Shown piece by piece: positions 7,120 through 31,246 of a DNA stretch of 35,202 bases; position 1 is the stretch's first letter; every line of letters starts with the position of its first letter. This DNA is from Streptomyces sp. SID11385 (GTDB lineage: Bacteria; Actinomycetota; Actinomycetes; Streptomycetales; Streptomycetaceae). The notes beneath the pieces are model-generated. The model worked only from the letters and a program-made list of their open reading frames with translations. It did no database searches and was not told where the DNA came from. Made by a program: the position numbers and the translations under genes. The stretch is taken from assembly GCF_010548245.1 (NCBI RefSeq), contig NZ_JAAGLR010000001.1:1-35202 (forward strand). The letters are read 5' to 3'.

Positions 7120-7213
7120 CCCGAGGGTGTGGGTACGGCTCCGCCCGTACGGCAAAGCCGAGGGGTCGGTAGAGGGCAGCGCTGCGAAGGGGGCGGCTCT
7201 CATGACCGCGTGG

Positions 7214-9443: not shown

Positions 9444-10210
9444 AGCAGCCGCCCCTGGACTGGGGTCTGGAGCGGTTTCGCCATCATCGTGCGCGGCGCG
9501 TCGAGGCTGGCCTGCGGTATTGCGGTGGCACCGGCTGACCGGGAGAGGGCGACGCGGGCCCGGATGGCATCACCGTTGCGGTCGCTGTACTCCGGTGGCT
9601 CGGGCAGTGGCCCGCTGCGCTTGTCCAGCCAGGTCTGGGCGGCACCAACGTCGGCGAACGCGCCCTCGCGGATCGTGTACGTGCCAGCGTCGTGGTTCCA
9701 CTCCTCGTGGAAGAGGCGAACCGGCGCCTGGTCAGCCTCGGGGTCGCGGACGAGCGTCCACGCCTCGCTGGGGTCGTCGTCGGAGGTATAGGTGTCGAGG
9801 ACCTCGTAGCGGGAGCCCGACGTTTGTATCTGCTGCTCAACCCGGATCGTGAGGTCGTCGGCGGGCTCAATGAAGTCGCCACCGCGCAGTGCGATCTGAT
9901 CGAGCGGGCAGCCGCGGTCTGCCAGCCAGTTCTGGGCGAAGGAGGCCGTGGCGTGGCGGCTCGTCTCGAACGTGAACGTGGATTCCCGCAGATCCCGCGC
10001 GACCGCGATCGCAACGAGTTGCGGCTCACCGGGTACCTCCCATGTGACCGATCGGTCATGGGCGAGGACGAAGCTGTGGGAGCCGTTGGGCGTGGTGTCG
10101 TGCCGGGAGAGCACCGTCAGGTCGCCGGAACGGAAGTCTTCCTTTACTTCCTCCGAGGCGTTGTCGGCCGGTGCAAGACGGTCGAGGCCGAAGTCGAAAA
10201 CGTTGTTCAC
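9440..10210 (-). CDS. Duplicated-domain element protein with shared C-terminal tag
   Basis: 256 residues. The GTG at 10210 overlaps the upstream stop (GTGA), with GAGGAGG upstream. It contains two similar beta-rich modules, about residues 25-120 and 135-215. Each ends in a helix plus Trp-Leu and Gly-Pro-Leu-like turn (ASFAQNWLADRGCPL; VGAAQTWLDKRSGPL). Near the C terminus RARVALSRSA lies 40 residues from the end, followed by a Pro/Ala tail. No recognised family. It stands at the head of a coupled group with the RelE-like gene. Confidence 0.72.
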   Translation of the reverse strand: MNNVFDFGLDRLAPADNASEEVKEDFRSGDLTVLSRHDTTPNGSHSFVLAHDRSVTWEVPGEPQLVAIAVARDLRESTFTFETSRHATASFAQNWLADRGCPLDQIALRGGDFIEPADDLTIRVEQQIQTSGSRYEVLDTYTSDDDPSEAWTLVRDPEADQAPVRLFHEEWNHDAGTYTIREGAFADVGAAQTWLDKRSGPLPEPPEYSDRNGDAIRARVALSRSAGATAIPQASLDAPRTMMAKPLQTPVQGRLL

Positions 10211-10800
10211 GCCGCCTCCTCCTCCGCCTGCTTGGGTGTGGGGGCGGCCAGCACCCGGTGGTTGGGCCGGGTCGCGCTGGTCGTACAGGCCGCGAAGGGG
10301 CCGTCGGGGGCGCGGAGGTGTGCCAGCGTGTGGTCCAGGTGGTCGCGGTGCCAGGTCGAAGGACCGGACAGGCCGGCCTCCGTGTCGGTGAGCTGCTGCC
10401 AGGCGAGCCAGAGCGCATGGAGACGGGCCACGGCCTCGGGGTGTTCGTACCACTGCGCGCACCAGGGCCGGTTCGCGCTGATCTCCCGGCCGTACACCGG
10501 CAGAAGGAGGTAGTGCACCCAGTCGCTGAGGGCGGCGAGTTCGGTGGCGTACGCCGGTCCGCCCAGTGCCGGGATGAAGATCGAGGTGGGACCGTCGGCC
10601 TGCTCGGTTTCGGGGTCGTCGTTCGTCGGCTGGTCGGGGTCGAGTTCCGGCTCGGTGGCGAGGCGATCGAGGGTGACTCCGTGCTGGCGAACCTCGGTCA
10701 CGATCTGGGCGACGGTGGAGGCGAGATCGTCCAGGTTTGCGTCTGGGACGCGGACGGGTTCGCGTTCGGTCTCGGGGGTGGGCGGGCTGGTGTCGGGCAT
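10207..10800 (-). CDS. DUF4913 family protein
   Basis: 197 residues from ATG 10800 (GGAG 10-12 bases upstream). Residues 1-75 are acidic and disordered apart from a helix (LDDLASTVAQIVTEVRQHG). Residues about 85-180 are the DUF4913 core: LSDWVHYLLLPVYGREIS, WCAQWYEHPEAVARLHALWL, TDTEAGLSGPSTWHRDHLDH, LRAPDGPFAACT. DUF4913 occurs on actinobacterial plasmids and conjugative elements; its function is not known. It is preceded by a copy of the repeated leader motif (10845-10890). It lacks the shared C-terminal tag. Confidence 0.85.
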   Translation of the reverse strand: MPDTSPPTPETEREPVRVPDANLDDLASTVAQIVTEVRQHGVTLDRLATEPELDPDQPTNDDPETEQADGPTSIFIPALGGPAYATELAALSDWVHYLLLPVYGREISANRPWCAQWYEHPEAVARLHALWLAWQQLTDTEAGLSGPSTWHRDHLDHTLAHLRAPDGPFAACTTSATRPNHRVLAAPTPKQAEEEAA

Positions 10801-10844
10801 GGAAGGTGCTCCGTTCGCGGGGTGACGGCGTGCGGAAGACGATC

Positions 10845-10890
10845 TGCGGGATTCGGGGTTTGGCCCGGCCGGACAAGTGGCGTAGAGGGC
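10845..10890 (-). promoter_or_regulatory. Copy of the repeated upstream motif
   Basis: The minus strand reads CCCTCTACGCCACTTG, then CCGGCCGGGCCAAACCCCG and AATCCCGC. It begins two bases beyond the stop of the methyltransferase remnant and ends about 45 bases before the DUF4913 start. It is closely similar to the copy at 20951-21003 (shared core GGCC-G-GGCCAAA-Y-CCCG-R-AT) and less so to 24231-24282 and 5548-5571. Confidence 0.4.
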
Positions 10891-10892
10891 CG

Positions 10893-12057
10893 CTACTGCG
10901 CGCTGCCCCTGGGGCAGCGGACGTGCGACGGGTTCAACAAGTGCAGGGCGTGGGCTGCCTGTTGGGGCACGACACCGTTGCCGAGGGCGGTGAGCTGGGC
11001 GGGGCGGCCCAGGCCGGGAGTGGCGGTGACCCAGCCCGGCTCCAGGCCCTGCATCCACTCGACGAACTCCGCACGCAAGCGGCCCGCAGCGTCGGTGGGT
11101 TCCGGAGCGGGGCGGGTGAGGATCTCCCATCGGGCGACGGCGGCTGCATATCGGCCCCACCGCGTGCCGTCTTCCTCGGAGCCGAGTACGTCTGCCGCAA
11201 CAACGGCAGGGACGTCTCCGGAGAAGAGGCCGGTGGATGCCCCGAGCTGGAACTGGTGCTCGTGCGATGCGAGCGCGGCAGGGAGGCTGCCGCGCTGGGC
11301 AGGGTCAAATCCCCGTTGCCGTGACGCTGGTTCGGCGAGCCCTTGATGCCGTCGGAGGCTTTCGGGGTGGGCAGGAGCCACTCCACCTCGTCGGCCAGAT
11401 TGGGGCCGTGCCCACCCTGTTTCCGTTTCGTCGGGTGCTGACTGCCGCCGTTCGTCGCCAGGTTGCTCGTCGGGGTTTTGAGCAAGGCGTTCGGCGGGCC
11501 AGGCGCTGAGGAAGACGCGCTCGCGGCGGTGCGGTGCGCCGACGTCGGAGGCACGAAGCACGAGCCAGCGCGCGTCGTACCCGAGGTCGGCCAGGGAGCC
11601 GAGTACGGCGCCGAGTGCCCGCAGAGCAGGCCGGTCTGGGGCGTCTCCCAGACACCACGGGCAGGGTTCCACGTCGCCACGGGCTGCGGCGGGTGAGGTG
11701 AGGAGGCCGCGCACATTCTCGATCACCACCAGGCAGGGGCGGAGGGCTTCGACCGCACGGGTCACGTGCAGCCAGAGCCCGGAGCGGGTGTCGGGGTTGA
11801 GGCCGGTGCGGGGCCCGGCAACGGAGACGTCTTTGACAGGGGAAACCGGCGGTGAGGACGCACACCTCGGGGACGAGGGACCAGTCGGTAGTGGTGATGT
11901 CCCCGAGGTTGGGCACACCGGGCCAGTGCCGGGCGAGGATGCGCGAGGCGGCGGGATCGGTCTCGGCGTGCCAGGCGACCGTGCCGCCGAGTGCGGAGAG
12001 AACGCCCAGGTCCAGGCCGCCATACCCGGAGCAAAGGGAGCCGATGGTCAGACTCAT
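10893..12057 (-). pseudogene. Frameshifted C5-cytosine DNA methyltransferase (Dcm-like)
   Basis: The ATG at 12057 overlaps the upstream stop (ATGA). The N terminus is a textbook C5-MTase motif I (LTIGSLCSGYGGLDLGVLSA) and reaches motif IV GFPCQ. There one extra A in an AAA run (about 11832) shifts the frame. The second frame continues with DVSVAGPRTGL, motif VI VIENVRGLLTSP and motif VIII RRERVFLSAWPA. The characteristic target-recognition stretch (LLKTPTSNLATNGGSQHP; HGPNLADEVEWLLPTPKASD) then lies in a third frame (about 11500-11290). The end (FVEWMQGLEPGWVT; ALGNGVVPQQAAHALHLL) returns to the second frame. Three shifts make a functional product unlikely, unless the base calls are wrong. 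Such orphan enzymes normally protect element DNA from host restriction. Confidence 0.8.
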
Positions 12058-12605
12058 CGGTGGCCGCCGCGTCGGTGAGGGGGCGAGGACGGGGCAGGGG
12101 GAGATGAAGGTGCTGGGTTGTAACCGGCGTTCAGTGCGCTGCGTAGGAGGGCGACCTGGACTCGTGCGCCGCCGTTTTCCACGCGGTAGGCGGTGCGCTC
12201 CAGGGCATCCACCGCACGGTGGAGGGCGAGGCGGGTTTTGCGCAGGGTCTCGCGCGCTTGGCTGTCGGTAGTCGAGGCGTGGGTGTCCGGGTTGCTGAGG
12301 CACACGAAAACCCGGCTCGTCGCGCTCAGAGCGGAGAGAGCCTCGCTGATCGGCGCTATGGCTTGTGTGAGCAGCGCGGCCCGTTCCCCTTCGTTGGAGT
12401 GGGAAGAACGGTGAATCTTGAGGAGGCCAACGGCCAGGACGTCTACCGCCTCGGCGGTACGAAGGGCGAGCCGAGAGGCGTGGGCGGGGTCCGGGTGTTC
12501 GACGAGGGACTCGGCCTCGGGCAGCATCTCGGCCAGGGCTGCGAGCCTGAACTGCGATCGGGTCAGGGCATCGGGCAGCTCGGTGTCAAAGACGGTTTGA
12601 TTCAT
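12054..12605 (-). CDS. Helical element protein with shared C-terminal tag
   Basis: 183 residues from ATG 12605 (weak GGGA ribosome site). Residues 1-135 are helical and acidic (LTRSQFRLAALAEMLPEAES; SRLALRTAEAVDVLAVGLLK). The last folded helix is LRKTRLALHRAVDALERTAY. Then comes a block RVENGGARVQVALLRS, which closely resembles RFEAGGARVPAVLYRGS in the next gene (12717-13022). The motif RVQVALLRSA lies 36 residues from the end, followed by Pro/Ser repeats and a basic end (RRGGHR). Function unknown. The 110 bases upstream hold no gene. Confidence 0.7.
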   Translation of the reverse strand: MNQTVFDTELPDALTRSQFRLAALAEMLPEAESLVEHPDPAHASRLALRTAEAVDVLAVGLLKIHRSSHSNEGERAALLTQAIAPISEALSALSATSRVFVCLSNPDTHASTTDSQARETLRKTRLALHRAVDALERTAYRVENGGARVQVALLRSALNAGYNPAPSSPPAPSSPPHRRGGHR

Positions 12606-12716
12606 GGCGGGGGTCCCAACGTTGTGGGTGGGGAGGAGGGCTGGCGTAACCCCGTAGGGGGCGCTGGACGATCGCTCGGCTTCCGCGGCTGGCAGGGCGA
12701 GGCGGAGCACGGGCGT

Positions 12717-13022
12717 TCATCCCCGGCGTTCGCCTTTATCCGGCCGCTGAGTCAGCGGGGAAACGGCAGGCGCCGCGGAGAACGGCTCGGGAGCAGGAGA
12801 GGCGCTGCGGGAGCCGCGGTACAAGACGGCTGGGACGCGCGCGCCTCCGGCTTCGAAGCGGTACGCCGGGTGCGCCAAGGTGGTGGTGGCGTCGTAAAGC
12901 TCGCTACGCGCCTGGTGCAGCGAGTCGTACACCGCTTCGCGCTCCCCTCCTCGACGTCGGGATCCAGCGGGCCGCTGACTGCGCGAGCGGTGGCTGAGGG
13001 GAGCGTAAGGATCGTTCTTCAC
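12717..13022 (-). CDS. Short paralogue of the 12054-12605 product, tagged
   Basis: 101 residues. The GTG at 13022 overlaps the DnaB-N gene stop (GTGA). The N-terminal 30 residues are Ser/Arg-rich. A helix (EAVYDSLHQARSELYDATTT) leads into AYRFEAGGARVPAVLYRGS, which aligns with the equivalent helix and GGARV block of the neighbouring 183-residue protein, so the two share a C-terminal module. RVPAVLYRGS is 40 residues from the C terminus, and the tail ends KGERRG. It may be a partial duplicate that lost its helical N-terminal domain. Confidence 0.65.
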   Translation of the reverse strand: MKNDPYAPLSHRSRSQRPAGSRRRGGEREAVYDSLHQARSELYDATTTLAHPAYRFEAGGARVPAVLYRGSRSASPAPEPFSAAPAVSPLTQRPDKGERRG

Positions 13023-14179
13023 GGTGCGTCCCGGTGATGAGAGCGAGAAGGCGTGGTCGAGGGAGCCGTCGAAGGGCGCGCGGGGCGGTATGGGACGTGC
13101 CGAACTGCGCGCGGAGTGCTGCGGGCGAGGGCGGCGTGCACCTGCTCGGCCTGAGGTTCGCGTGCTTCTGGGGCGGGCGGCGGGCTGGTGCCGCCGATCG
13201 CGGTGTCCCAGCGGGCACGGACGTCGTCGAGCGGCCCGAGCGCGTGCAGGGCATGGCTGATCAGGCGTCCTGGAGTGAGGGTTTCGTCCTCGGCGGCGTC
13301 CCGGACCGCGCGGGCGGAGGCGGCTGCGGTCCGGGTGAGAGAGGAACGGATCACCTGCTGCCCGAGCCAGTCGGCGTCGCCTGCTCCGACGCCGTCGGCG
13401 AGCGCGGTGATCTGCTCGCGGGTGAGGGTGCCGTCGGCGAGAAGGCCGCGTCGCTGTGCTTCCCACAGGACGGTGAGGCGGTCGATGGGTTCGCCCCGGT
13501 GGTGCAGTGCGCCGAGGCACTGGTAGAGCAGGCCGTGAGCGGTGGTGGAGAAGTCGCTGGGACGCAGCCAGTTGACGACGGCGTCCATGGAGCCCGGCTG
13601 CTCGATGAGGACGGACAGGAGGAAGCGCTCGTCGTCGAGGACGCTCTCGGCCGGAGCGGGCGCGGCCGGCAGCGGAGAGGAGCCGGAGGGTAGCGCGGGG
13701 CGGGCTTCGGCACCCCAGCTCTCGGAGAGATCCCGCAGGACACCGGTGAGCACGTCGGCTTGGTGGAGGGCGCCTTCGACGTCTCCGCGTACGGAGTCAG
13801 CGCGGGCGGCTTGGTGGAGGCGGATCGCGTGCTGGGTGATGGTGCGGTGGATGGCGCCCTCCAGCACCATACGCCCGTAAACGGGGGCGTGTTCGGGATG
13901 TGGGCAGCCTTGCACCAGGGAGTGGGCGTACACGTCGGTCAGGCCCCGTACGTGGCGGCCGGCCTCGGCGACAGCGTCGGTGATCCACGACAACGGGACG
14001 TCGTCCCCGGCGAGCGCGGGGTGATGTTTGTCGCGCAGCGTGCACATGGCAGAGAACAGAGCCCGGTGCGCGGGCCGTTCGAAGTGGGCTGGAGCGAGCC
14101 AGCCGAGGTGGGCAAGCTGACCGGGGTCGAGGAGGATCGCGCCGAGGACCGCCTGCTCGGCGCTCAGGAGCGGGTTCAC
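13019..14179 (-). CDS. Tandem DnaB N-terminal-domain protein without helicase core, tagged
   Basis: 386 residues; the GTG at 14179 overlaps the preceding stop (GTGA). Residues 5-125 match the DnaB N-terminal (primase-interacting, helical) domain: SAEQAVLGAILLDPGQL, FERPAHRALFSAMCTL. Residues 182-300 are a second copy: DDERFLLSVLIEQPGSMDAV, FSTTAHGLLYQCLGALHHRG. No RecA-like ATPase follows: there is no Walker A. In replicative helicases this domain contacts primase and packs the hexamer collar. A stand-alone double copy could recruit host primase or DnaB to transferred single strands. QVHAALARST, 41 residues from the end, is a strong copy of the shared tag. Confidence 0.8.
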   Translation of the reverse strand: MNPLLSAEQAVLGAILLDPGQLAHLGWLAPAHFERPAHRALFSAMCTLRDKHHPALAGDDVPLSWITDAVAEAGRHVRGLTDVYAHSLVQGCPHPEHAPVYGRMVLEGAIHRTITQHAIRLHQAARADSVRGDVEGALHQADVLTGVLRDLSESWGAEARPALPSGSSPLPAAPAPAESVLDDERFLLSVLIEQPGSMDAVVNWLRPSDFSTTAHGLLYQCLGALHHRGEPIDRLTVLWEAQRRGLLADGTLTREQITALADGVGAGDADWLGQQVIRSSLTRTAAASARAVRDAAEDETLTPGRLISHALHALGPLDDVRARWDTAIGGTSPPPAPEAREPQAEQVHAALARSTPRAVRHVPYRPARPSTAPSTTPSRSHHRDAP

Positions 14180-14406
14180 CGGTGCTCTCCCGACTCCGGC
14201 GCGGAGGAGCCAGGGGCTACGGCGCGAAGACGGGCGACGGCGTGCTCGGCGTCGTCCAGGGCGCGGGCGAGGCTGTCGAGCGTCGCGGCGAAGGCAGTGT
14301 CCGTGGCGGCTATAGCGCCCGCCTCGCTGACCAGCCACCACTGACCGTTGCGGCGGACGGCGGGCGAGCGGCCCAGACGTCCGGGAGCGAGAGAGGAGGC
14401 GCTCAT
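14176..14406 (-). CDS. Small hypothetical protein between T4CP and DnaB-N genes
   Basis: 76 residues. ATG 14406 overlaps the T4CP stop by ATGA, and its stop overlaps the next GTG. It has a short strand pair (RRNGQWWLVSEAGAIAATD) followed by one long helix with heptad-like hydrophobics (FAATLDSLARALDDAEHAVA). No family recognised. Tight coupling on both sides suggests it is needed in proportion to the coupling protein or the DnaB-N protein. It lacks the tag. Confidence 0.7.
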   Translation of the reverse strand: MSASSLAPGRLGRSPAVRRNGQWWLVSEAGAIAATDTAFAATLDSLARALDDAEHAVARLRAVAPGSSAPESGEHR

Positions 14407-16190
14407 GCCGACAGCCCGTAGTCGTCGCGCTGGTTGTCCTTCGCGAGGGCTCGTGCGGTGATGGCCTTGGTGGCGTGGGCGGAGGCCGGGCCGATCGTCT
14501 TCGCGTGGGGTTCCTTGTACCAGGGGCGCAGGGTGAGCATGGCAATCCGCAGGCCGGTGGCGAGCAGGAGGGCTTTGCCCTTGGGCAGGGCGCGGATCGC
14601 GTCAGGGGGCAGGATGCGTTCGGTGCGCATGCTCACCGACGTGGACTTGCCGCTTTCGCTGGTGGAGACGGAGGTGGTCTGGACGTCGTGATCCCCGACC
14701 TGCTTGCTGAGCCGGTCGGCGAAGTCCGCGTCGTCGATGCCCGAGCCGACGATCTTGATGGTGGCCGCCGACCAGAGGGCGTCCATCCCGGCCTCGCCCC
14801 AGCAGCGCTGCCCCTGCCGGTAGGACTGCAGGATCGTGATCGGGATGACCCCCCGGCTGCCCAGGTGGCTGTACAAGTCCGGTAGGTCCGAGATTTTGCA
14901 GACGTTCGCGGCTTCGTCGAGGACGCACAGGGCGGGCGGGTCGAGGCGCCCTCCGGAGCGTTCGGCGACGACGACGGCGGCGCGCATGACGGCATCGGCT
15001 GCAGCGGCGATGATCGCGCTCGCTGAGCCTCCGCCGTCCTTGCTCAGCAGGAAGAGGGTGTCTGTGGAGGAGGCGAAGGCGCTGGGCTTGAACTCGGGAA
15101 GGCCCGGGTGGGGAGTGACCCAGGCTGAGACTTCGGGGTCGAGGAGGCAGCTCGCGTATTGGCGGGCGGTCTCGTAAATGCCGTCTCGTGTTTCGACCGC
15201 GCCTGAGACGGTGCCCTGGAGTTGAGCGGCGACCGCGTGGTGGCCGGCATCGGTGAGGAGGTCGACCGGGGTGCGGTCGGCGGGTGAGGCGAGCCAGGCC
15301 AGGGCGTCGGTGACGGGGCGGCGGTGGCTGGCGGCGGCGAGGAAGAGGGCGGCGAGCGTGTTGGCGGCGGCGGTCGACCAGAAGTCGTTGCCGTTCGACT
15401 CGTCCACGCTCGCGGCGACGAAATGACCGGCAAGCCGCTTTGCCCCGGCGAGATCGCGGGCATCGGCGAGGATGTCCCACCACATCTCGCGCGGGTGGTG
15501 TGCGATCTGCTGCGGGTCGAGCGTCCAGGCCGTGCCGACCTCGCTGCGGGCGCCGACCGTGGTCGTGTAGGCGTCGTTCGCCGCTTTGTTGCTTGTGAGG
15601 AGAACGGGGCCGGGGGCGGAGAGGATCGCGGGGATTGCCAAGGCGCTGGTCTTGCCGCTGCGCGGTGCCATGATCGCGACGATCACGTCCTCCCATGAGG
15701 CTCGCACCTCCGTCCGCCCCGGCGAGAGGGCGCCCAGGAGAACGCCCCTGTCGGCGGGAGCGATGTTCTTCGCGCGCAGTGTGCTGAGCGAGGGCCGCAG
15801 ATCGCGGGCCTTGGCCGTGATCTCCTTCCCGAGCAGCGGGGAGAGATCGCCCCTGCGGGCGAGGCCCCTCCTTGCCCCGCCTCGCCACCTGATCCACAGT
15901 GCGATGCCGAGGACGGCGAGGCCGAGAGCCAGCAGGCCGGGGACGATCCGCGCGCCGATCAGGATTTCGGTTGTGGACAGATGCGGCCACGTCTCGGCGG
16001 GGCGAAGCAGCCCGTCGGTCACCTCGAACGGCGTCCAGGGCCCGACCCCGAGGAGGGTGTTGGTCAGGTTTCCGCTGAGCCAGGTCAGGGAGCCGACGCA
16101 GAGCCCGAAGCCGAGTGCGCCGAACAGGAGATACAGGAGCGCGTCCGTCCCGGTGGTGGCCGAGGGCGCGGTAGTGCGTTGTGCGGGCAT
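14403..16190 (-). CDS. VirD4/TraG-type T4SS coupling protein (T4CP) ATPase
   Basis: 595 residues. Two N-terminal membrane segments (about 19-40 and 80-101) anchor it. Walker A is at 175-181 (APRSGKTS), Walker B at 421-427 (LCVLDEAAN), with the SKDGGGSASAIIAA stretch before it. The C-terminal half (LQSYRQGQRCWGEAGMDALW; IVGSGIDDADFADRLSKQVG) is typical of TraG/VirD4 in actinobacteria. VirD4 proteins bind relaxase-DNA and protein substrates and pass them to the secretion channel. This is the only candidate substrate receptor in the window and hence the likely reader of the C-terminal tag. ATG 16190 has only a weak ribosome site. Confidence 0.92.
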   Translation of the reverse strand: MPAQRTTAPSATTGTDALLYLLFGALGFGLCVGSLTWLSGNLTNTLLGVGPWTPFEVTDGLLRPAETWPHLSTTEILIGARIVPGLLALGLAVLGIALWIRWRGGARRGLARRGDLSPLLGKEITAKARDLRPSLSTLRAKNIAPADRGVLLGALSPGRTEVRASWEDVIVAIMAPRSGKTSALAIPAILSAPGPVLLTSNKAANDAYTTTVGARSEVGTAWTLDPQQIAHHPREMWWDILADARDLAGAKRLAGHFVAASVDESNGNDFWSTAAANTLAALFLAAASHRRPVTDALAWLASPADRTPVDLLTDAGHHAVAAQLQGTVSGAVETRDGIYETARQYASCLLDPEVSAWVTPHPGLPEFKPSAFASSTDTLFLLSKDGGGSASAIIAAAADAVMRAAVVVAERSGGRLDPPALCVLDEAANVCKISDLPDLYSHLGSRGVIPITILQSYRQGQRCWGEAGMDALWSAATIKIVGSGIDDADFADRLSKQVGDHDVQTTSVSTSESGKSTSVSMRTERILPPDAIRALPKGKALLLATGLRIAMLTLRPWYKEPHAKTIGPASAHATKAITARALAKDNQRDDYGLSA

Positions 16191-16289: not shown

Positions 16290-16964
16290 TCAGCGGGTGT
16301 GGGGCGGGCGGTGCGAAGCAGCGCTCGGTGGGGCTTCGGCCGTCTCGTGCTGTGTAGGTGTCCCGCGTGCGACGACGTTCGGGGACGTGCTCTGCGCGGC
16401 CTGCTGCCTCTTCGTTTCCGTCCGTGTATCGGCGGTGGACGGTGCGGCGTGGGGAGCCGGGGCGCCCATGACGTCGTGAAGCAGTTCCCGCGTCCGCAGC
16501 TCGTAGACCATTTCGTGGTGCCGAGGGTGCGTGCGCTCCTGGGGGCAGGCGGCGACGCCTGCCTCTGCGTCCAGCAGGTACTCCTGAGCCCCTTCCAGCA
16601 TGTTGTGCGCGGCGGCGAGGCGAGTCCACGTCTCGAACGGGGCGTTGGGCGGAACCGGGTTGTCGAAGGAAAGCCGCAGACGTGTCCAGTCCGCTGCTGC
16701 GGCCGTCAGTCCAATCAGTTCCGGCAACACACCCGCCAAGGCGCTGGTGACTTCCTCAAGGATGCTGGCGACCTCTCCCGGCGAGGCGTCCTCGGTCAGC
16801 CGGTGGATCATCCCGCGCACCGAATACGAGTCGGCGCCGGGCGGCGGAATGTAGCGGACCCGCGTATCTTCGTCCGGGCCCGGCACTGCGCCGTGTGCGA
16901 GTTTGATGTTGTGGGACATCGCCGCGCCGATGGCGTCGCCGATGCTGGGGTGGAATTCCGGCAC
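16290..16964 (-). CDS. Helical element protein with tag-like C terminus
   Basis: 224 residues from GTG 16964 (GAGGAG about 10 bases upstream). A GTG at 17090, overlapping the ATP-grasp stop, would add 42 Arg/Pro-rich residues and looks less likely. The central part is helical (GMIHRLTEDASPGEVASILE; LPELIGLTAAAADWTRLRLS; WTRLAAAHNMLEGAQEYLLD). The tail contains RQQAAQSTSP 39 residues from the end, close to RVEAALSTSP in the 23363-24169 product, and ends in basic HRPPHTR. Function unknown. It lies between cargo-like genes and the coupling protein. Confidence 0.7.
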   Translation of the reverse strand: MPEFHPSIGDAIGAAMSHNIKLAHGAVPGPDEDTRVRYIPPPGADSYSVRGMIHRLTEDASPGEVASILEEVTSALAGVLPELIGLTAAAADWTRLRLSFDNPVPPNAPFETWTRLAAAHNMLEGAQEYLLDAEAGVAACPQERTHPRHHEMVYELRTRELLHDVMGAPAPHAAPSTADTRTETKRQQAAQSTSPNVVARGTPTQHETAEAPPSAASHRPPHTR

Positions 16965-17086
16965 TTCTGCTCCTCGGCCTGGGACTGGGACCGGACGGTG
17001 GGCTCGTACGGGTCGCGCCCACCGCCCGTGCTCTCGCTGGTCGCCGCCGGTGGGTCTGGCAGCGCGAGCGCCTGGGTGTAGGGGGT

Positions 17087-18322
17087 TCACCGGGTGACCG
17101 TGAGAGTGAGGTCGTCCGTGAGGGAGGCGAGGCGGGCCCGGGTCTCCTGAGCGGTGTCATCGGTGACGATGAGGAAGCCGACGCGGGCGGTGTCGAGATT
17201 CCCGGCCGGGGGCAGCGCCACCTGTTCGCCGACCTTGCGCAGCCACGTCACCTCGTGAAGCCACGGGCACGTCGCATCCGCGTCGGCGGACAACTCGCGG
17301 GCGGTGAGGACGCCCGAGGCCGGCGGGTAGAGGATCTTGATCGCGGCGGTCGTGTGGGCGGTGCGCGTGAGGTCGGGCTGGCGTCCGCAGGCGACGTCGG
17401 CGGCGATGCGGGGCAGGTCGAGGCCGGTCGCGAGGCGAACGAGCGTGCCGATCCGGTCCCCGCCGATGCGCGCGTTCACCTCGATGATCCTGGGCCCCGT
17501 GGCGGTAAGGCGCATCTCCACGTGCTGGATACCGGAGGTCACCCCGAGCGCCCGTACGGCCTGGATCGCGACGGGCGCGACCTCGGGCAGGAGCGGGTCG
17601 GCGGCATCCACGGTGTGGCCCGTCTCCTCGAAGTACGGGGCGAAGCCGACCTCCTTGCGGGTGACGGCCAGCGCGGTGGTGATGCCCTGGTGGGTGACGC
17701 ACTCGACGGAGACTTCCGGGCCCGCCAGGTATTCCTCGACGAGCACACCGCTGCCCTCCGGGCCCTGCTCACCGGCCCCGGCCGAGGCAAACTCCCAAGC
17801 AACGAGCAGCTCTTCAATGTTGTCGGCGCGGATCACGCCGATGCTCGCAGCGTGGGAGGACGGCTTAAGGACGACGGGGAAGCCGGTACTGAGCGCGGCC
17901 TCACGTGCCTGTTCCAGGCTGGTGACGCGCGTCGAAGTGGCCGAGGGAACGTCGTGCTCGGCGAACAGGCGGCGGCTCCTGGCCTTGTCGCGGCACGCAG
18001 TCATCGCCTCCACCGCGTTGCCGGGCACGCCGAGGCGTTCGACGAGCGCTGCGGTGGGCACGAGCGCGTACTCGTCCCACGTCACCACCCCCGCGACCCG
18101 GTGCCGCTCAGCCAGGGCCAGGCCAGCCGCGACCACCGAGTCGACATCGTGAATGTCGGCGACCTCGTGATCGGCTACCAAGTGGTGCGCCCAGGACGGC
18201 GACTTGGTGTCGATCAGCGCGATGGGATATCCGGCGGCGGCCTGCTCGACGCAGTACCCCCGGTAGACGGGGTCCGTACCCCCGACGACGATCAGCAGCG
18301 GGGATGTGGTCATCTGCGACAC
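17087..18322 (-). CDS. ATP-grasp ligase (carboxylate-amine type)
   Basis: 411 residues from GTG 18322 (GGAGG seven bases upstream; an ATG at 18313 is the alternative). It opens with a nucleotide-binding-like strand (LLIVVGGTDPVYRGYC). ATP-grasp hallmarks: VVLKPSSHAASIG at 150-162, the hinge VLVEEYLAGPEVSVEC at 193-208, a substrate Glu at 269 and the metal/ATP motif IIEVNARIGGDRI at 279-291. Such enzymes activate a carboxylate as acyl-phosphate and join it to an amine; close relatives make dipeptides or amino-acid conjugates. It directly follows an MFS exporter gene (73-base gap), a pairing seen with dipeptide antibiotic systems such as bacilysin BacD/BacE. The substrate cannot be read from the sequence. 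Confidence 0.88.
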   Translation of the reverse strand: MSQMTTSPLLIVVGGTDPVYRGYCVEQAAAGYPIALIDTKSPSWAHHLVADHEVADIHDVDSVVAAGLALAERHRVAGVVTWDEYALVPTAALVERLGVPGNAVEAMTACRDKARSRRLFAEHDVPSATSTRVTSLEQAREAALSTGFPVVLKPSSHAASIGVIRADNIEELLVAWEFASAGAGEQGPEGSGVLVEEYLAGPEVSVECVTHQGITTALAVTRKEVGFAPYFEETGHTVDAADPLLPEVAPVAIQAVRALGVTSGIQHVEMRLTATGPRIIEVNARIGGDRIGTLVRLATGLDLPRIAADVACGRQPDLTRTAHTTAAIKILYPPASGVLTARELSADADATCPWLHEVTWLRKVGEQVALPPAGNLDTARVGFLIVTDDTAQETRARLASLTDDLTLTVTR

Positions 18323-18396
18323 GGGAGAACCTCCAGGTGCACGGAAATCGGGAAGGGAGAGGAAAGGAAGGGGAAGGACGAGGCCCGGGGCACACG

Positions 18397-19677
18397 TCAT
18401 CGCGCGTCCGCCACGTGCTCGGACTCCGACGCGGAGGCACGGGCCCGGTGGCCGGGGAGGTCGTAGGCGCTGCGGTGGCGGCGAAGGCCGGCGAAGCACA
18501 CAGCCAGCGCCGCGCCTTGAAGAATGGCGCAAGCCAGCAGGAGGAGCGGAATGCTGTCGGCGGGGACGAGGGCAATCAGGGCTCCGGCGAGCGGGAGCGG
18601 CAGCAGCACCAGGATGATCGTCACGGCCAGGGTCGAGCCGAACGCCGGAGCGGGGATGGCATGGGCGCGCAGGGTGCGCAGCACCACGGTCATCGCTCCC
18701 TCACCGGCCATGACCGCCGCCACCGCAATCGTGTACGCGGGGAAGGTGGGGGCCAGGGCCGCGCCCAGGCACGCGAGGGTGACGAGGGCGGCCATGCTCG
18801 CGCCCACAGCCCAGATTCCGAAGCGGTCGATGGCCCGGCGGCTGATCCAGATCGCCACCAGGGAGGCCACCGCTGCCGCACTCCAGACCGACCCCACAGC
18901 GGCGGTTGAGTAGTGGAAGTGATGGACGACGGTGATCGGGGCCGAAGCCTGCAGTACGCCGGTGGCGAGATTCGAGGCAGCCAGACCGCCGACCAGCCAC
19001 ACCAGTGCCGGTGTGTGCCGTAGCGTTGTCCACCCCGTGCGCAGGCTGCTCCGCTCCCGGGCGTCGTCCGTCGGGTGAGTGTGCGCCTTCGTCGGAGGGG
19101 TGAGCGTGGTGGCGGTGAGCGCGAGGAGCGCGACCACCACGAGTAGGGCGGTGGGCCCGGCGAGCAGGAGCAGGCCACCGAGCAGTGGTCCGATCAGCAA
19201 TGCGGCCTGGTCGATCCCGGTCTGCGCGGCCTGCACCCGGTGCGCCTGGCTGCCCATATCGCGGCTGGCCTTGGCGCCGAGCGTCTCGATCGCAACGAAG
19301 GAGACCTCGGCCAGCAGCCCGGAGACCGCTCCGAAGACGAGCGTTGCCGCCGTCGAGAACCCGCCTGTGCTCGGAAGGATGAGAAGGACGACCGCGGTCA
19401 CGGCGACGACGAGGGTGCGAGCCGTGTTGGAGACCCGGAAGGCGTGGCCGGCACCCCACCGGTCGACCAGCGATCCGGCGACGGTGAAGGCGGCGATCCT
19501 GGGCACCCATTCGATCAGGAAGGCAAGGCCGGTGAGGACGGTGGAGCCGGTGGTGACGAGCACGAGCAGAGGGACGGCGTATGTGGTCGTGGCGCTGGCC
19601 AGAGCGTCGGCGGCACGCATGAGGTAGGTGCGCGACGGTCCACCGGTCAATGCGTGGGTGACGGACACGGGTGTCAC
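18397..19677 (-). CDS. MFS exporter, 12 membrane segments
   Basis: 426 residues. The GTG at 19677 overlaps the stop of the relaxase-like gene (GTGA). Hydrophobic segments start near residues 22, 45, 80, 103, 150 and 172, then about six more after the central loop (THPTDDARERSS). The loop between segments 2 and 3 holds GSLVDRWGAGHAFRVSN, matching MFS motif A. It resembles the enterobactin-exporter/multidrug branch of MFS, which drives efflux by proton antiport. Coupling to a conjugation gene upstream and an ATP-grasp ligase downstream suggests export of the ligase product. Export of a drug is the alternative. Confidence 0.88.
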   Translation of the reverse strand: MTPVSVTHALTGGPSRTYLMRAADALASATTTYAVPLLVLVTTGSTVLTGLAFLIEWVPRIAAFTVAGSLVDRWGAGHAFRVSNTARTLVVAVTAVVLLILPSTGGFSTAATLVFGAVSGLLAEVSFVAIETLGAKASRDMGSQAHRVQAAQTGIDQAALLIGPLLGGLLLLAGPTALLVVVALLALTATTLTPPTKAHTHPTDDARERSSLRTGWTTLRHTPALVWLVGGLAASNLATGVLQASAPITVVHHFHYSTAAVGSVWSAAAVASLVAIWISRRAIDRFGIWAVGASMAALVTLACLGAALAPTFPAYTIAVAAVMAGEGAMTVVLRTLRAHAIPAPAFGSTLAVTIILVLLPLPLAGALIALVPADSIPLLLLACAILQGAALAVCFAGLRRHRSAYDLPGHRARASASESEHVADAR

Positions 19678-20894
19678 CGGCCCCGGGGGGAGGGCGTGTG
19701 CGCTGTGGGGAAGGGCGCCTGGCTCTGGGCAGTTGTGGCAGAGGGGGATGGGGTAACGCACGCGTCAGCGGCTGAGGGCGAAACGGCGAGGGCAGCCCTC
19801 TGGGAGGCGGGGGGTGGTGCGATGTTGCGCACCACGGTCGCGGCATCGGTGAGTTCCGCCTGGGCTGCGGTCAGGAACTCGGCAGCCGTCTCGAAGCGGT
19901 CGCGCAACTCGAATGACTCGTCGTCCAGCTCTTCCAGCCGAGCCGAAACGGCTTCCAGCGCCTCCCGGACTCGTTCCAGCCCGCCATGCTGGGGGTGAAT
20001 CAGGTGCTCTACTGGGCGGGCGAGGCTCTGCCCGTCCGGCGCGGCCCAGACCTGATCGGTGAGCCGGAGGATTTCACTTCCGGTCTTGTACGGACCGAGC
20101 GGATTGGTCGGGCTGATCTCGGTGGAGGCGTCGAGGGTGGGGTCGAGGCGGACCTCGTAGCGGGCCGCCCGAAGCATCTGGGCCGCATACGTGGCGATGG
20201 CGCGGCTCTCGTCGGCGGGGGTGGTGGAGGCGAGGCGGTGGCGGCGGCCGTGCCAGTCCTGAATCTGCTGGAAGCCCGCGTGCTTGAGGAGGGCGGCGGA
20301 CAGGTCGTCGCTCGCCCCGTGGGCGACGACGCTGCCGCTGATCTCGGCGGAGATGGCTATGGAGGGGGCGGGCATGGGCTTCTCCTGCGGTCGGGGAACG
20401 GGCAGATGGCCCAGGTCCTTGGTGATGCGCCGACACTCGGCCTGAAGGCGGAAGGCGTCGCGGTAGGAGGCGTGGAGACCTCCGTCTTCCCGGGCGACGG
20501 TGGCGACGATGTCCATCCGACGGGGCTGACTTCGCAGGGCCAGCCACCGGCAGGCGTCCGGATCACCCACGGGAGCCAAGCCGGTGGTGTCGACGAGGCG
20601 GCGGGCGACTGCGGCCCACTGCGTGTCGTGCGGGTCCTGATGCCGGGGGTCGGAGCGCACCGAGCACAACCAGACGGGCTCTGGCGGAGCCCGGAGGCCG
20701 AGTCGCTCGATGGGCGCGTCGAGGACCTGAGCGAGGACGGGCGGGGAGAGCGACTCCGCGAACATGGCGAGCGGGGCGCCGTGACCATCGCCGTCGATCA
20801 GGCGTGGGTTGTCGTGGTTGCCGCGCTCGCCTGGGCCAAGCAGGTAGGCGAGCGTATCCACAGTGCTGCGGGCACGGTGCAGAGAGACGAACAA
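19674..20894 (-). CDS. Relaxase-like protein lacking catalytic His residues, fused to an element domain, tagged
   Basis: 406 residues from TTG 20894 (CGAGG eight bases upstream). From there the first 22 residues align with the start of actinobacterial MobA-type relaxases: VDTLAYLLGPGERGNHDNPR corresponds to their L-x-Y-L-x-GPG-x-x-x-x-H-x-x-P. Next, PVWLCSVRS (73-81), where relaxases have WHCS, and RWLALRSQPRRMDIVATV (116-133), where they have RHxDDHIHIVA. All three catalytic or metal-binding His are replaced. At residue 174 an internal ATG (20375) with a perfect AGGAGAA site could start a 233-residue product on its own: a domain also found in the 22563 and 23363 genes, a coiled-coil helix, and the tag-like QRAALAVSPS 42 residues from the end. 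Confidence 0.72.
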   Translation of the reverse strand: MFVSLHRARSTVDTLAYLLGPGERGNHDNPRLIDGDGHGAPLAMFAESLSPPVLAQVLDAPIERLGLRAPPEPVWLCSVRSDPRHQDPHDTQWAAVARRLVDTTGLAPVGDPDACRWLALRSQPRRMDIVATVAREDGGLHASYRDAFRLQAECRRITKDLGHLPVPRPQEKPMPAPSIAISAEISGSVVAHGASDDLSAALLKHAGFQQIQDWHGRRHRLASTTPADESRAIATYAAQMLRAARYEVRLDPTLDASTEISPTNPLGPYKTGSEILRLTDQVWAAPDGQSLARPVEHLIHPQHGGLERVREALEAVSARLEELDDESFELRDRFETAAEFLTAAQAELTDAATVVRNIAPPPASQRAALAVSPSAADACVTPSPSATTAQSQAPFPTAHTPSPRGR

Positions 20895-21327
20895 GGCGAC
20901 GACCTCGGAGGGGTGGCGGGAAAAGAGCCCGGTCGGGCTACCAGAAGGAGAGGTTCCGCGAAATCCGGGATTTGGCCGGGCCGAGAAAGGCTGGTAGTAG
21001 GGACACCGTGACGATGCTCCGTACCAATCAGACTGGGTGACGGCACGACGTGCCACGTCTGCTCAGCGTCCCCAAACCGCCGTGAATCTCAGCGCCCCGA
21101 GAGGACCACTAGATTGGGTCGTTCGACCCGGCCCCTAGCCCGAGGCCATCCGAACCAACTCGGCGCAATTACTGAGACGTCAGCACCAACGGCCGGTGCG
21201 ATGGAGTTCTGCGAATAGTGCCCCGCGGCCGCCCGCGCTCTTCTATGGTCAAGCCAGGCAGGGCTTTTGGGTTCCCTACGCCGTTCCTTCAGTGTGCGCC
21301 AATGTAGGCACTGCAACGGGAGGCGTC
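20895..21327. other. Intergenic region between divergent genes
   Basis: No convincing gene. It holds the repeated upstream motif (20951-21003) for the leftward relaxase-like gene and a small hairpin GGGTCG-TT-CGACCC at 21116-21129. The last 100 bases upstream of the 41-residue ORF contain a possible -10-like TAGGCA at 21305-21310. GC content drops slightly compared with neighbours (AATTACTGAGACG region), typical of a divergent promoter region. Confidence 0.4.
20951..21003 (-). promoter_or_regulatory. Copy of the repeated upstream motif
   Basis: The minus strand reads CCCTACTACCAGCCTTTC, then TCGGCCCGGCCAAATCCCGG and ATTTCGCGG, about 60-110 bases before the relaxase-like start. It shares the core GGCC-S-GGCCAAA-Y-CCCG with 10845-10890 and the CTAC-n-CTT spacing with 5548-5571 and 24231-24282. 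Confidence 0.4.
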
Positions 21328-22037: not shown

Positions 22038-22535
22038 TCAGAAGAACGGATTCTCGGAACTCCTGTCCGCATCGGTGGCGGCCTGGAGCAGCTCGGGCAA
22101 GTCCTCTGGGTCCGAGGCGCGCTGGTCGAGCCACCAGCCGGCGCGGGTCACCGTGCGCGCCGCGTCCTCGATTTGCTCCCACTGCGCCTCTGTCGTCTCG
22201 CCCTCCAGGACGAGCGCCGTGAACGCGGCGGTCATGAGCTGGTGGCGGCAGCGCACCGCCCAGGGGACTGCACGCTCGGTCCCATCGAGCGGGGGCATCT
22301 CGTACTGCTGGGACCAGGCGTCCGATTCTGCCTGTTCCTCGGCTCGTTTTGCGGCGAGCCAGGCGGCCCTTTCCTGCTCGTCGTCCTGCTTGGCGGCACG
22401 CCAGCAGTCGGTGCACTCCTGGGTCGCGAGCCACTCGGCGAAGCCCGCACGGCGGTCGGCCGGACGGTTGGACAGATCCCGGTCCGCCGGGTGGCCGCAG
22501 GCGTGCTCGATGTGCCAGATGGTCTTCACGGACAT
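22038..22535 (-). CDS. Element-associated CxH/CxxC protein
   Basis: 165 residues, ATG 22535 with GGAGG ten bases upstream. The N terminus TIWHIEHACGHPADRDLSNR and ECTDCWRAAK (about residue 40) give Cys and His residues spaced for a zinc site. A charged helix follows (AAWLAAKRAEEQAESDAWSQ), then a C-terminal helical domain (LMTAAFTALVLEGETTEAQW; WWLDQRASDPEDLPELLQAA). I recall the start HIEHACGHPA-x-RDLS as conserved in Streptomyces conjugative elements; its function is unknown. It is the last gene of the T4SS-side leftward block. Confidence 0.75.
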   Translation of the reverse strand: MSVKTIWHIEHACGHPADRDLSNRPADRRAGFAEWLATQECTDCWRAAKQDDEQERAAWLAAKRAEEQAESDAWSQQYEMPPLDGTERAVPWAVRCRHQLMTAAFTALVLEGETTEAQWEQIEDAARTVTRAGWWLDQRASDPEDLPELLQAATDADRSSENPFF

Positions 22536-22562: not shown

Positions 22563-23360
22563 TCAGCGATGGTGCGGGGAGGAAGCGGATGGCGGGGGCA
22601 CCGGGGCTGTGGCAGCGCCGGGCCCAGCGGCCGGGGTGGTGCGTGGAAGAGTGCGTGGGCCAGTGGTCGGCGCGAGCCTGGACTCGTCGCGCACCCATAC
22701 CTCGTGGGCCAGCACCTCCTGAGCAAGGTCAGGCTGGATGGCGATGCCGACGTCGCGGTCGTTCAGGGCCAGCGTGGTGTCCGCGAGTGTGGTCAGGGCC
22801 GGGCCGCGCCCGTCCGGTTGCGGAAGCACGTAGATGTCCAGCGTCTCCTGATGCAACCACCCACGCTCGTGGAGGACACGGCCCGCTCGCTCGCTGTCGA
22901 GCTGGTCGTCGGTGGCGGCGATGAAGCCGAGCTGGGGGTGCTCGGCGAAGGCGACGGTCGGCACCGGGCTCGGAGTGGCGGCGCGGTCGGCAGCTCGTGC
23001 GGCTGGGGGTGTGGGCTCGTAGGCGAGATCGGCGGCGACGTCGTAACCCGCGTTGCGCATGAGCGTGACGGCACGCGTTGCGCGGGCGGTGCCGTCACGG
23101 GCCTGGTCGGCGAGCGCGAACAGAGCGGGTTCGTCGGGCACGGCATGGAAGCCAAAGCCGTTGAGCATCCACGCGTTCAGCGTGGAGTCCTTCGCGACCG
23201 TGGCGACGATCCCGTGGCGGGGGTGATGGCCGACTGTGAAGTCGGGAGGCGAATCGTAGAGAGCGGGCACGGTGGTTCCATCCGTTTCGGAGTCGGCGGG
23301 GGCGCCTTCGCGGAGCGGGATGGTTCTGCGGGGCGCGGGGCGCTCGGTGGCGCGCGGCAC
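22563..23360 (-). CDS. Two-copy element domain protein with Pro-rich basic tail
   Basis: 265 residues. The GTG at 23360 starts two bases after the preceding TGA, with CGAGG eight bases upstream. There are two copies of one domain. Copy 1, residues about 35-110: FTVGHHPRHGIVATVAKD, then GFGFHAVPDE, then LMRNAGYDVAADLAYEP. Copy 2, about 125-205: VAFAEHPQLGFIAATDDQ, then RGWLHQETLDIYVLPQ, then LALNDRDVGIAIQPDLA. The same pattern is in the products of 19674-20894 and 23363-24169. It has a similar Pro/Ala tail ending SPHHR, but the R-V-x-A-A-L motif is not convincing (RLAPTTGPRT at the same distance). Confidence 0.72.
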   Translation of the reverse strand: MPRATERPAPRRTIPLREGAPADSETDGTTVPALYDSPPDFTVGHHPRHGIVATVAKDSTLNAWMLNGFGFHAVPDEPALFALADQARDGTARATRAVTLMRNAGYDVAADLAYEPTPPAARAADRAATPSPVPTVAFAEHPQLGFIAATDDQLDSERAGRVLHERGWLHQETLDIYVLPQPDGRGPALTTLADTTLALNDRDVGIAIQPDLAQEVLAHEVWVRDESRLAPTTGPRTLPRTTPAAGPGAATAPVPPPSASSPHHR

Positions 23361-23362
23361 GA

Positions 23363-24169
23363 TCAGCGCCTCGGGGCGCTGGGGCGAGAGCCAGGGGGCG
23401 AGGCAGGGGTGACCGACAGAGGGCTCGCCGTGTTTCGCGGTGCGTGGGGGGAGGTAGAGAGGGCAGCCTCGACACGGACGGAGGGGGTGGCCTCCGGAGC
23501 GCAGGGCTGTTGGAGGGTGCCCTTCGCCGGAAGGGCCGTGTGTCGGTCGGCGAGAGTACGACGCACGGCGCTGATCTGCTGGCTGTGCGAGGCGATCGCG
23601 GCGGCGAGGAAACGAAGGCGCGCCGCGTGGTCCCGGTCTGCGGGGGTGCTGAGTTCGTCACACCGGGCGGCGGCTGTGTCCAAGACCTCGCTCACGCGTT
23701 GCAGGACCCCGTCTCCGGGAGCGGTCAGCTCGCTCAGCGCGGTGACGACCTCGCTGGTGTGGCCCGCTACCGCTACTCGGTCCCGCAGTTCACCGAGCCA
23801 GTCTCCGAAGTCCCACCCGGGGTGGCGGAGTTCCAATTCTGGGTCGAGCAGCTCACGGGCGAGCCGCACCTCTATGCCCTGTGCTTCGAGCAGGTCGTAG
23901 GCGAGGGTCGTCGTGGCGCGCTGTTCCGCCGGGTCCGTTATGCCCAGGGGCAACTGGTGGTGGGGACCGCCAGGACCATCAACCCGGATGAAGCCCGCCC
24001 GGTGCAAGGTGGCGGCAATGGTGCGCTCGTATTCTGCGGCCTTGGCCGCGATGGCCTCGGAGTGTGCCTCTGCCGGAGTTGAGGGCGTCTGGGCGAGGAG
24101 TGCGCTGCGTCGCGCGGTGACACGGTGGTTTTCACGTTCGAAGGTGATGAGAGGCAATTCGACGGCCAT
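23363..24169 (-). CDS. Element domain plus helical protein, tagged
   Basis: 268 residues; ATG 24169 with GGAGG upstream. Residues about 10-115 contain one copy of the domain also present in its two relatives: TIAATLHRAGFIRVDGPGG, then HHQLPLGITDPAEQRATTTL, then DLLEAQGIEVRLARELLDPE. Residues about 120-225 are helical (SEVVTALSELTAPGDGVLQR; RLRFLAAAIASHSQQISAVR). RVEAALSTSP is 37 residues from the C terminus, with a Pro/Ser tail ending SAPRR. A copy of the repeated leader motif lies upstream (24231-24282). Function unknown. Confidence 0.74.
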   Translation of the reverse strand: MAVELPLITFERENHRVTARRSALLAQTPSTPAEAHSEAIAAKAAEYERTIAATLHRAGFIRVDGPGGPHHQLPLGITDPAEQRATTTLAYDLLEAQGIEVRLARELLDPELELRHPGWDFGDWLGELRDRVAVAGHTSEVVTALSELTAPGDGVLQRVSEVLDTAAARCDELSTPADRDHAARLRFLAAAIASHSQQISAVRRTLADRHTALPAKGTLQQPCAPEATPSVRVEAALSTSPHAPRNTASPLSVTPASPPGSRPSAPRR

Positions 24170-24285: not shown

Positions 24286-24972
24286 TCAGCGGGTGCGCCT
24301 TGGCGCCGTCGGCGACGGGGGCCCGGAGACGCGCTGGCTGGTGGGCGCGTCGCTTGTTGGGGTGGCCGATCGTGCGAGTGCGGCCCGGACACGCTCGCTG
24401 GGCGTCGCCGGGGTATCGGCTCGGCTTGCGAGGTGGGCTCCCACGCGAGCGAGCGCGGCTCCTTGTGAGGACAGGAGGTCGGCGTAGTGCCACCCCTCGC
24501 TGTTTCGCAACTCGATGGCCCGGGTCTCGTACAGGTCTCGGTACTTGGAGGGCATGGGGTTGAGGTGGGTGACGGCCTCGGCCCACTCGTCTTGCAGTTC
24601 GGCGGCCCGTTCGAGTGTGGTGTCGATCCCGCGGAGCACGCTCAGGTCGGTGCTGATCGGGCCGTCCAGGTAGTCGGCTCCCTGGGCGTTCGCGCGAACG
24701 CCGCTGAGGACTTCGTCGCCGTGAGCGAGGAAGGTCTCGACACCGGCCCATGCCTCGGCGTCGCGGCGTACCTTGCGGTCGGCGTAGCGGGTTTCGTCGA
24801 GGGGCCAGCCGTCCTCGTCGCACAGGGAGTCCGAGACAGCGTCCCAGGCGTCGGAGGCGCGGGTGATGCTCTCGGCTGCGGCGGCCAGAGCGGGGACATG
24901 TCGTGTCCAGGAGTGCTCGTCGGCGGGCTCCGGGCCGGGGGCTTCGGTCGGGGTGGTGTTCGCATCGGTCAT
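24286..24972 (-). CDS. Helical element protein with clear C-terminal tag
   Basis: 228 residues from ATG 24972 (GAGG nine bases upstream). It is acidic and helical throughout (PALAAAAESITRASDAWDAV; DAEAWAGVETFLAHGDEVLS; LRGIDTTLERAAELQDEWAE), followed by YRDLYETRAIELRNSEGWHY. This is the best tag in the set: RVRAALARSA, 35 residues from the end, then Thr/Ser/Pro and a basic end PRRTR. It lies directly downstream of the VirB4 gene with a 177-base gap. Function unknown. Confidence 0.74.
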   Translation of the reverse strand: MTDANTTPTEAPGPEPADEHSWTRHVPALAAAAESITRASDAWDAVSDSLCDEDGWPLDETRYADRKVRRDAEAWAGVETFLAHGDEVLSGVRANAQGADYLDGPISTDLSVLRGIDTTLERAAELQDEWAEAVTHLNPMPSKYRDLYETRAIELRNSEGWHYADLLSSQGAALARVGAHLASRADTPATPSERVRAALARSATPTSDAPTSQRVSGPPSPTAPRRTR

Positions 24973-25149
24973 GTGGTGGGCCTCGGGTGGTGTGCGGGCC
25001 CTCGCCGGGCTCGCAGCGGAGCGAGAGCGGACGGAGGAAGCGCGGAGGACGGGAAGCGGGCGCCTCTGTGCGTCTTCTGGCCGGGCGACGACGAGGGGGC
25101 CGTGATGCGCGCAGGTCACCGTAGGGCGCCAAGTAGCGCTGCTCAGCCT

Positions 25150-31158: not shown

Positions 31159-31246
31159 AACGAACTCCAGTTCGATTTGCTGCGCGCCAAAGCCCGCATG
31201 GGCGATCGGCGGAGCGAGGAGAGAGGAAGGGAGGGGAGCGTGCGGG

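Follow-up and report, generated by a model that had tools for sequence, protein, structure and literature searches.

In Streptomyces sp. SID11385, a fused gene at positions 19674-20894 (minus strand) of a 35,202-nucleotide stretch of contig NZ_JAAGLR010000001.1, referred to below as the window, encodes a relaxase fold without the three-histidine metal site of relaxases. The loss is conserved among its homologues, which we call family A, and the relaxase-like (N) domain is under purifying selection. A separate relaxase is present in the mapped relatives, the gene occupies a recurrent slot near traG, and a conserved internal start codon opens its second domain (the C domain). With slightly less than even confidence, we propose that the protein is a relaxase pseudoenzyme in the DNA-transfer module of a Streptomyces integrative and conjugative element (ICE) of the type IV secretion system (T4SS) type, in which it would serve as an adaptor between relaxosome and pump. 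This molecular role we infer from sequence comparisons. The gene is one open frame from TTG 20894 and has the following parts:

19674-20894, minus: fused open reading frame (ORF) of family A, with pseudo-relaxase domain, C domain and C-terminal tag (406 aa, TTG start)
20400-20894, minus: pseudo-relaxase domain, residues 1-165 (hhalign and AlphaFold2 model against relaxases)
20667-20669, minus: codon of L76, at the replaced motif-II His, in VWLCS (alignment)
20511-20519, minus: codons of R126-M127-D128, at the place of H-x-H (alignment)
20380-20386, minus: internal Shine-Dalgarno-like AGGAGAA (GGAG in 33/36)
20373-20375, minus: internal start ATG of the C domain (ATG or GTG in 36/36 fused copies)
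19815-20375, minus: C domain, with an alpha/beta part (residues 178-255) and a helical part (267-358) (AlphaFold2 models, stand-alone homologues)
19677-19799, minus: C-terminal tag, with RAALAVSP, a Pro/Ala/Ser-rich stretch and an SPRGR end (tail comparison)

The relaxase fold and its dismantled metal site

Residues 1-165 aligned over their full length with actinobacterial MobA-type relaxases, in the motif order given by the initial annotation (GPGxxxxH, PVWxCS, TGLAP, RWxAxR, IVAT). By tblastn, the best match to an ordinary relaxase gene of Streptomyces had E 1.5e-31, and the profile comparison with relaxases proposed earlier gave, with hhalign, a probability of 100% and an E value of 1.3e-50. 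With the curated score of PF03432 itself the window protein gave no match and one of 29 family members appeared at E 0.17; the Pfam and NCBIfam models did not detect the window protein, and Pfam, NCBIfam and PHROGs offered nothing useful for family A. An AlphaFold2 model built from 29 family members had a mean pLDDT (per-residue confidence) of 73.6 and a pTM (predicted template modelling score) of 0.41. When residues 1-177 of this model were compared by VIA-align, the top 24 rows were all relaxases (MobA of R1162, MobM, TrwC, TraI and others; Z 7.8-9.6); an unrelated protein first appeared at Z 7.2. The top three rows, at Z 9.6, aligned 145-151 residues with a root-mean-square deviation of 3.9-4.3. 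Foldseek returned no match to the model at E <= 0.001.

In the window copy the motif-II His is L76, so that WHCS reads WLCS as first noted. The HxH motif, earlier read as M-D, is indeed replaced, but the residues are R126-M127-D128 and both His positions (126 and 128) are gone. The motif-I Tyr (Y17) and the His of GPGxxxxH are kept. The counts for family A refer to 37 distinct sequences among 44 rows, several genomes being represented in both collections, and N-domain matches of fewer than 100 profile positions were excluded beforehand. The motif-II His was present in 0/36 (in one further sequence this position is deleted) and the first HxH His in 0/37; the second HxH His was found in 33/37 and the motif-I Tyr in 30/36. 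Because the motif-II His and the first HxH His are gone family-wide, the three-His metal site cannot form in any family A protein seen. The statement that all catalytic histidines are lost thus held for the window copy but not for the 33 homologues that retain the second HxH His; by alignment, the window copy is one step beyond most of its family. In the 11 element relaxases compared, ten from relatives and one from a further contig (C479) of the same genome, all four catalytic residues were intact.

Selection was gauged by simple pairwise counting of nonsynonymous and synonymous changes (dN/dS; 560 pairs with dS 0.05-0.8, related pairs included). The median was 0.25 for the N domain and 0.35 for the C domain, and we conclude from the former that the N domain is under purifying selection. 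Among the pairs listed, the N domain of the window copy gave 0.25-0.39 against nearer rows; against L059, L062 and L063, its three most distant rows, where divergence is high, it gave 0.57-0.71. Residues D87, E136 and D137 were invariant across 29 rows of A1, and most family A copies retained the start codon with its ribosome site as well as the tail. TTG 20894 aligned with the GTG start of 35 other members; family starts are mostly preceded by a gaggta-type ribosome site, and the window copy has gaggtcgtcgcc. The His-less version is therefore conserved in related elements, in 37 distinct sequences, and no version with intact His residues was found at the same locus in relatives.

An internal start and a C domain with its own history

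All 36 fused copies, the frameshifted L013 and L066 being left out of the codon counts, carry a start codon at the beginning of the C domain: GTG in 24 and ATG in 12. Elsewhere in these genes valine is written GTG in 26% of cases. On the tree there were six changes between GTG and ATG at this position, all of them staying start codons. The sequence GGAG lay within 16 nt of the internal start in 33/36 copies, as against 5/163 of the other in-frame ATG or GTG codons of the N domain, and stand-alone C genes begin at the same point. The internal start described initially is thus real and conserved and, since it is, the fused gene probably makes two products, the full-length protein and a free C domain.

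The stand-alone C genes were nested among fused copies in at least three places on the tree; the N domain has therefore been lost or cut off several times and the C domain retained. One RefSeq record annotates the C part only; its gene begins 315 nt into the match and stands two genes ahead of a T4SS DNA-transfer gene. A short element, CCCGGATTTCGCGG (coding strand; window 20956-20969, minus), lies about 60 nt ahead of the start of the fused gene and is a possible operator or promoter. Copies of a cccggattt[gat]c type were seen by eye about 66 nt ahead of the start of four stand-alone C genes (cccggatttgccgg in G116), and these genes may have lost the N domain but retained the leader.

The description of the second domain as element-specific fitted in part: the domain occurs family-wide, several elements carry it alone, and the window itself holds a paralogue (23363-24169). 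As to a primase, the C domain gave no Pfam match over the cut-off and no clear fold match, and a MotA-like DNA-binding resemblance (template modelling score 0.38, E 2.9) was set aside. A module resembling the C domain's alpha/beta part (hhalign 89%) is also present, by eye apparently twice, in a separate window protein (22563-23360).

The slot beside traG and the layout of the element

The genes of the window that bear on the position of the fused gene are these:

14403-16190, minus: traG/VirD4-type coupling protein, downstream of the pseudo-relaxase (PF12696, PF02534, synteny)
16290-17090, minus: tagged protein between the fused gene and traG (synteny, tail)
13019-14545, minus: tagged protein with a DnaB N-terminal-like domain, overlapping traG (PF00772, tail)
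22038-22535, minus: small conserved gene upstream of the pseudo-relaxase slot (synteny)
23363-24169, minus: C-domain paralogue with its own tag (hmmsearch score 157, tree)
30850-31317, minus: VirB2-like/DUF6112 T4SS component (PF19607 over its cut-off, PF04956 under its cut-off)
2926-3573, plus: gene directly downstream of the intact relaxase in relatives, the relaxase being missing from that side here (synteny)
17087-18532, minus: variable cargo, ATP-grasp/L-amino-acid-ligase-like gene (in some relatives only)
18397-19761, minus: variable cargo, major facilitator superfamily (MFS) transporter (PF07690); the ORF overlaps the fused gene

Ten mapped relatives share one order: the relaxase and the homologue of the 2926-3573 gene and, on the other strand, an SPDY protein, a C5 methylase, the DnaB-N protein, traG, the pseudo-relaxase or C-domain gene, and T4SS genes. 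An intact relaxase was present in 10/10 of them and lay 17-28 kb away from the gene for the pseudo-relaxase or C domain. None was found in the window, as the initial annotation had stated; the second relaxase that it suggested looking for was found outside, in these relatives and in the same genome, where C479 carries an element relaxase 69-77% identical. C479 and the window are likely parts of one element. In the window an FG-GAP gene (193-2598; GC content at third codon positions 0.93) stands at the place of the relaxase, left of the 2926-3573 gene, and the relatives' matches to the 2926-3573 protein begin only at residues 30-102; by these comparisons the relaxase end of the element is missing from the window contig. 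Of the traits of a T4SS-type ICE, a coupling protein and T4SS parts are present in the window, and a relaxase in 10/10 relatives and on C479. Together with the conserved His loss and the purifying selection, the separate intact relaxase supports the pseudo-relaxase interpretation first put forward.

The pseudo-relaxase lies in a recurrent slot between the homologue of the 22038-22535 gene and traG. We tabulated 68 traG places of at least 62% identity to that of the window among the matches listed, with a 15 kb rule and with the partial G153 (71%) left out. At 77% identity or more (21 of these listed places) there were ten with family A, one with A split by a stop, six with the C domain alone and four with neither nearby; of these four, G028 has A on another contig. 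In three elements (G067, G183 and G040) in which no pseudo-relaxase was found, the C domain adjoins traG.

Two further His-less lineages were found. Lineage B (nine distinct sequences) stands alone upstream of A in some elements; it has the motif-II His in 9/9, G/R-L-D in place of HxH, and the motif-I Tyr in 0/9. Lineage D came to light in 3 of 18 further elements whose stretches upstream of traG were read, and then by search; of the traG places below 67% identity (40 among the matches listed), 31 had it at a start-to-start distance of 6.1-11.8 kb. Its 30 best loci, the best matches of one search and not a random draw, had the motif-II His in 30/30, the first HxH His in none, D at the second position in 29 and the motif-I Tyr in 0/30. 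The C-terminal helical module of D resembles the helices of the C domain (83%). Thus A, B and D retain different single His residues and never the full set.

In a joint tree (65 rows thinned from those collected; bootstrap not settled), A, B and D each formed one clade with strong support, and B plus D had 90/90. All His-less lineages as one clade gave an approximately unbiased test value (p-AU) of 0.53, and the three are perhaps of one origin. Family A was one clade on a long stem, apart from the element relaxases; the deep forks are weak and long-branch joins are possible. A recent duplication of the element's own relaxase was set aside, as A does not group with the element relaxases (weak backbone). 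Among the best 40 of 103 plasmid records with a match, 38 look like ordinary mobilization proteins; H1 and H2 are closer to family A.

The ATP-grasp and MFS cargo (17087-19761) lies between the fused gene and the 16290-17090 gene. This pair was matched in G057, G091, G070 and G147 and not in G023, G110, G146, G151, G154 and G116; G010 has the ATP-grasp gene. By sequence the pair looks like a ligase and an exporter that would make and export a dipeptide, and the true start of the MFS gene may lie below 19674. On C479 the relaxase is directly followed by an IS630-like transposase (L094 1-880, by eye). Another contig of the genome, C73 (L092, L093), matches the window without differences between 35202 and about 15,200 and at 99.4% from there to 13,668, beyond which its genes look chromosomal (NuoM- and HtpX-like by eye); C73 looks like a partial second copy or a wrong join.

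The C-terminal tag noted earlier on the fused protein is present, and it is shared by element proteins of unrelated domain content. It consists, partly by eye, of an A-A-L/R-x-x-S-like box (AALxxS), a Pro/Ala/Ser-rich stretch and a mostly basic end. In the window the tail was seen on the minus-strand ORFs 5664-6146, 6184-7446, 7214-8383, 8973-9443, 9440-10876, 12054-12710, 13019-14545, 16290-17090, 23363-24169 and 24286-25119. A pattern written after the window tails had been viewed matched 49/437 ORFs of element stretches, six of the 49 being window ORFs and at least one match looking spurious (G146 858-1169), against 2/450 control ORFs. Both sets of ORFs were called with a simple GC-frame rule, and host genes from the flanks are among those in the element stretches. 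By eye the tail was absent from TraG, the 25150, 27184, 28727 and 30149 genes, and the VirB2-like and NlpC/P60 proteins. The tails of D are often proline/alanine-rich with basic ends and lack, by eye, the AALxxS box. In G146 and L048 the tail of the fused protein resembles, by eye, that of the 16290-17090 homologue (G110 and G091 rows), and G146 has no separate match to the 16290-17090 gene; because of this, the tag appears to have been exchanged and kept, as by deletion. Such an exchange points to some importance of the tail, perhaps in connection with the T4SS, and the shared tail is possibly a common T4SS export or docking tag.

Possible roles and related systems

Because the slot, the dead relaxase fold and a C domain near traG recur, an adaptor is the simplest reading. 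The dead domain would still hold on to DNA (of oriT type or single-stranded) or to the true relaxase, but would not cut. The C part and basic tail would dock on TraG, the coupling protein encoded close by; the fused protein would in this way join relaxosome and pump, and the free C domain from the internal start would be a second, adjustable subunit. A wider proposal, which we hold a little more tentatively, is that, in actinobacterial T4SS elements, a whole branch of relaxases gave up catalysis and took a fixed slot as partner of the coupling protein. There would be at least three such lineages (A, B and D), with different His remnants and each beside an active relaxase. The relaxosome would then have two relaxase folds, one cutting and one presenting; the internal start would set how much free C domain is made relative to adaptor, and many partners would share a tail for the T4SS.

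Several observations weigh against the adaptor. The trees indicate that the N domain has been lost or cut off at least three times with the C domain kept. Some copies are damaged: L013 and L066, from one genome, are frameshifted, L055 is affected in its tail, G154 has a stop between the domains, and in L048, L056 and L061 the B-type genes are only fragments. The window copy itself sits on the longest branch of family A. Some traG genes also lack these neighbours. In G121, G066 and G166 neither A nor C was found in the stretches upstream of traG. At 67-76% identity (seven places among the matches listed), three had the C domain alone and four had none at the threshold used, three of which (G086, G138 and G191) gave weak C or N matches when read. 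Below 67%, no D was found in 9 of the 40 listed places. Since some elements have no A, C or D near traG, the pseudo-relaxase is not indispensable. The C domain alone had no informative fold match (helical rows Z up to 8.9, alpha/beta part weak), and the evidence for the putative docking on TraG is gene order alone.

The protein could instead be a negative regulator or decoy, its dead domain competing for oriT or pairing with the true relaxase and so limiting transfer or re-nicking, or blocking related incoming elements. We regard this as unlikely. A metal site lost from a retained fold would suit it, as would the motif-I Tyr kept in 30/36 family A copies, and an N domain that was lost repeatedly would be less expected of a core part than of a modulator. 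However, the gene stands upstream of traG, and in the mapped relatives 17-28 kb separate it from the relaxase. In the tree, moreover, A stands apart from the element's own relaxases (on a weak backbone, where long branches meet), so a recent copy sharing the oriT of the relaxase is not indicated. About as improbable, in our view, is delivery by the T4SS of a protein that acts in the recipient, for example by binding the entering strand or its end, with the shared tag as export signal. The tag is common to many element proteins and absent, by eye, from TraG and the other untagged proteins named above, and it appears to have been exchanged between neighbours; transfer of element proteins to recipients is reported for an F-type T4SS (PMC8406263). 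Proline-rich basic tails may, however, serve other ends, and the D tails lack the AALxxS box by eye.

That the protein is still an active nuclease, with metal bound by other residues or by none, seems highly improbable. The motif-I Tyr of 30/36 family A rows and the invariant D87, E136 and D137 of the 29 A1 rows would fit such an enzyme, but the Tyr is gone from B (0/9) and D (0/30), and the three lineages keep different single His residues. Decay after deletion, which the initial annotation had raised and which would leave the frame a mere remnant, is scarcely credible: the long terminal branch, the missing relaxase end of the contig and the higher dN/dS against L059, L062 and L063 would agree with it, yet as a first null it is unsupported by the median dN/dS or by the His loss in every one of the 37 distinct homologues, and the window copy has low ratios against nearer rows (among the pairs listed) and retains an open frame, a start site and the tag.

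Each component has known counterparts, among relaxases, relaxosome auxiliaries, co-transferred proteins and fusions with an internal start. In RSF1010, MobA/RepB' is a relaxase domain fused in frame to a second domain with its own internal start. Family A shares the in-frame fusion and the conserved internal start of the second domain; it differs in that its relaxase domain is dead and its second domain is not recognisably a primase. With MobA/VirD2-type relaxases (PF03432), including the element's own, it shares the fold, the motif order, the motif-I Tyr (in the window copy), GPGxxxxH, RWxAxR and VAT; unlike them, its three-His site is replaced, and it falls below the Pfam cut-off, is shorter, is fused to the C domain and lies by traG. 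OrfL and OrfM of ICESt3 resemble the role proposed here as non-catalytic relaxosome partners, but those are OB-fold proteins (PMC12614216), whereas here the auxiliary would be a dead relaxase. The translocation-signal domain of relaxases likewise aids recruitment to the T4SS but lies within the relaxase polypeptide (PMC3912908); here the module would be a separate gene. A common export route with proteins co-transferred by conjugative T4SSs and with polyvalent proteins (PMC8406263 and PMC5512222, respectively) is possible, export being putative here. We found no description in the open-access literature of a catalytically dead relaxase conserved in a recurrent slot.

Relaxase genes serve to call and class conjugative elements, as in PMC9513070 and PMC3218068. 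In this element the relaxase-fold gene near traG is not the relaxase. The conserved internal start eases separate tests of the N domain and the C domain. To our knowledge, the T4SS of mycelial actinobacteria has been little studied beside the TraB route; if the adaptor reading is true, the protein would give a handle on how single-stranded DNA is handed over to the pump in these organisms.

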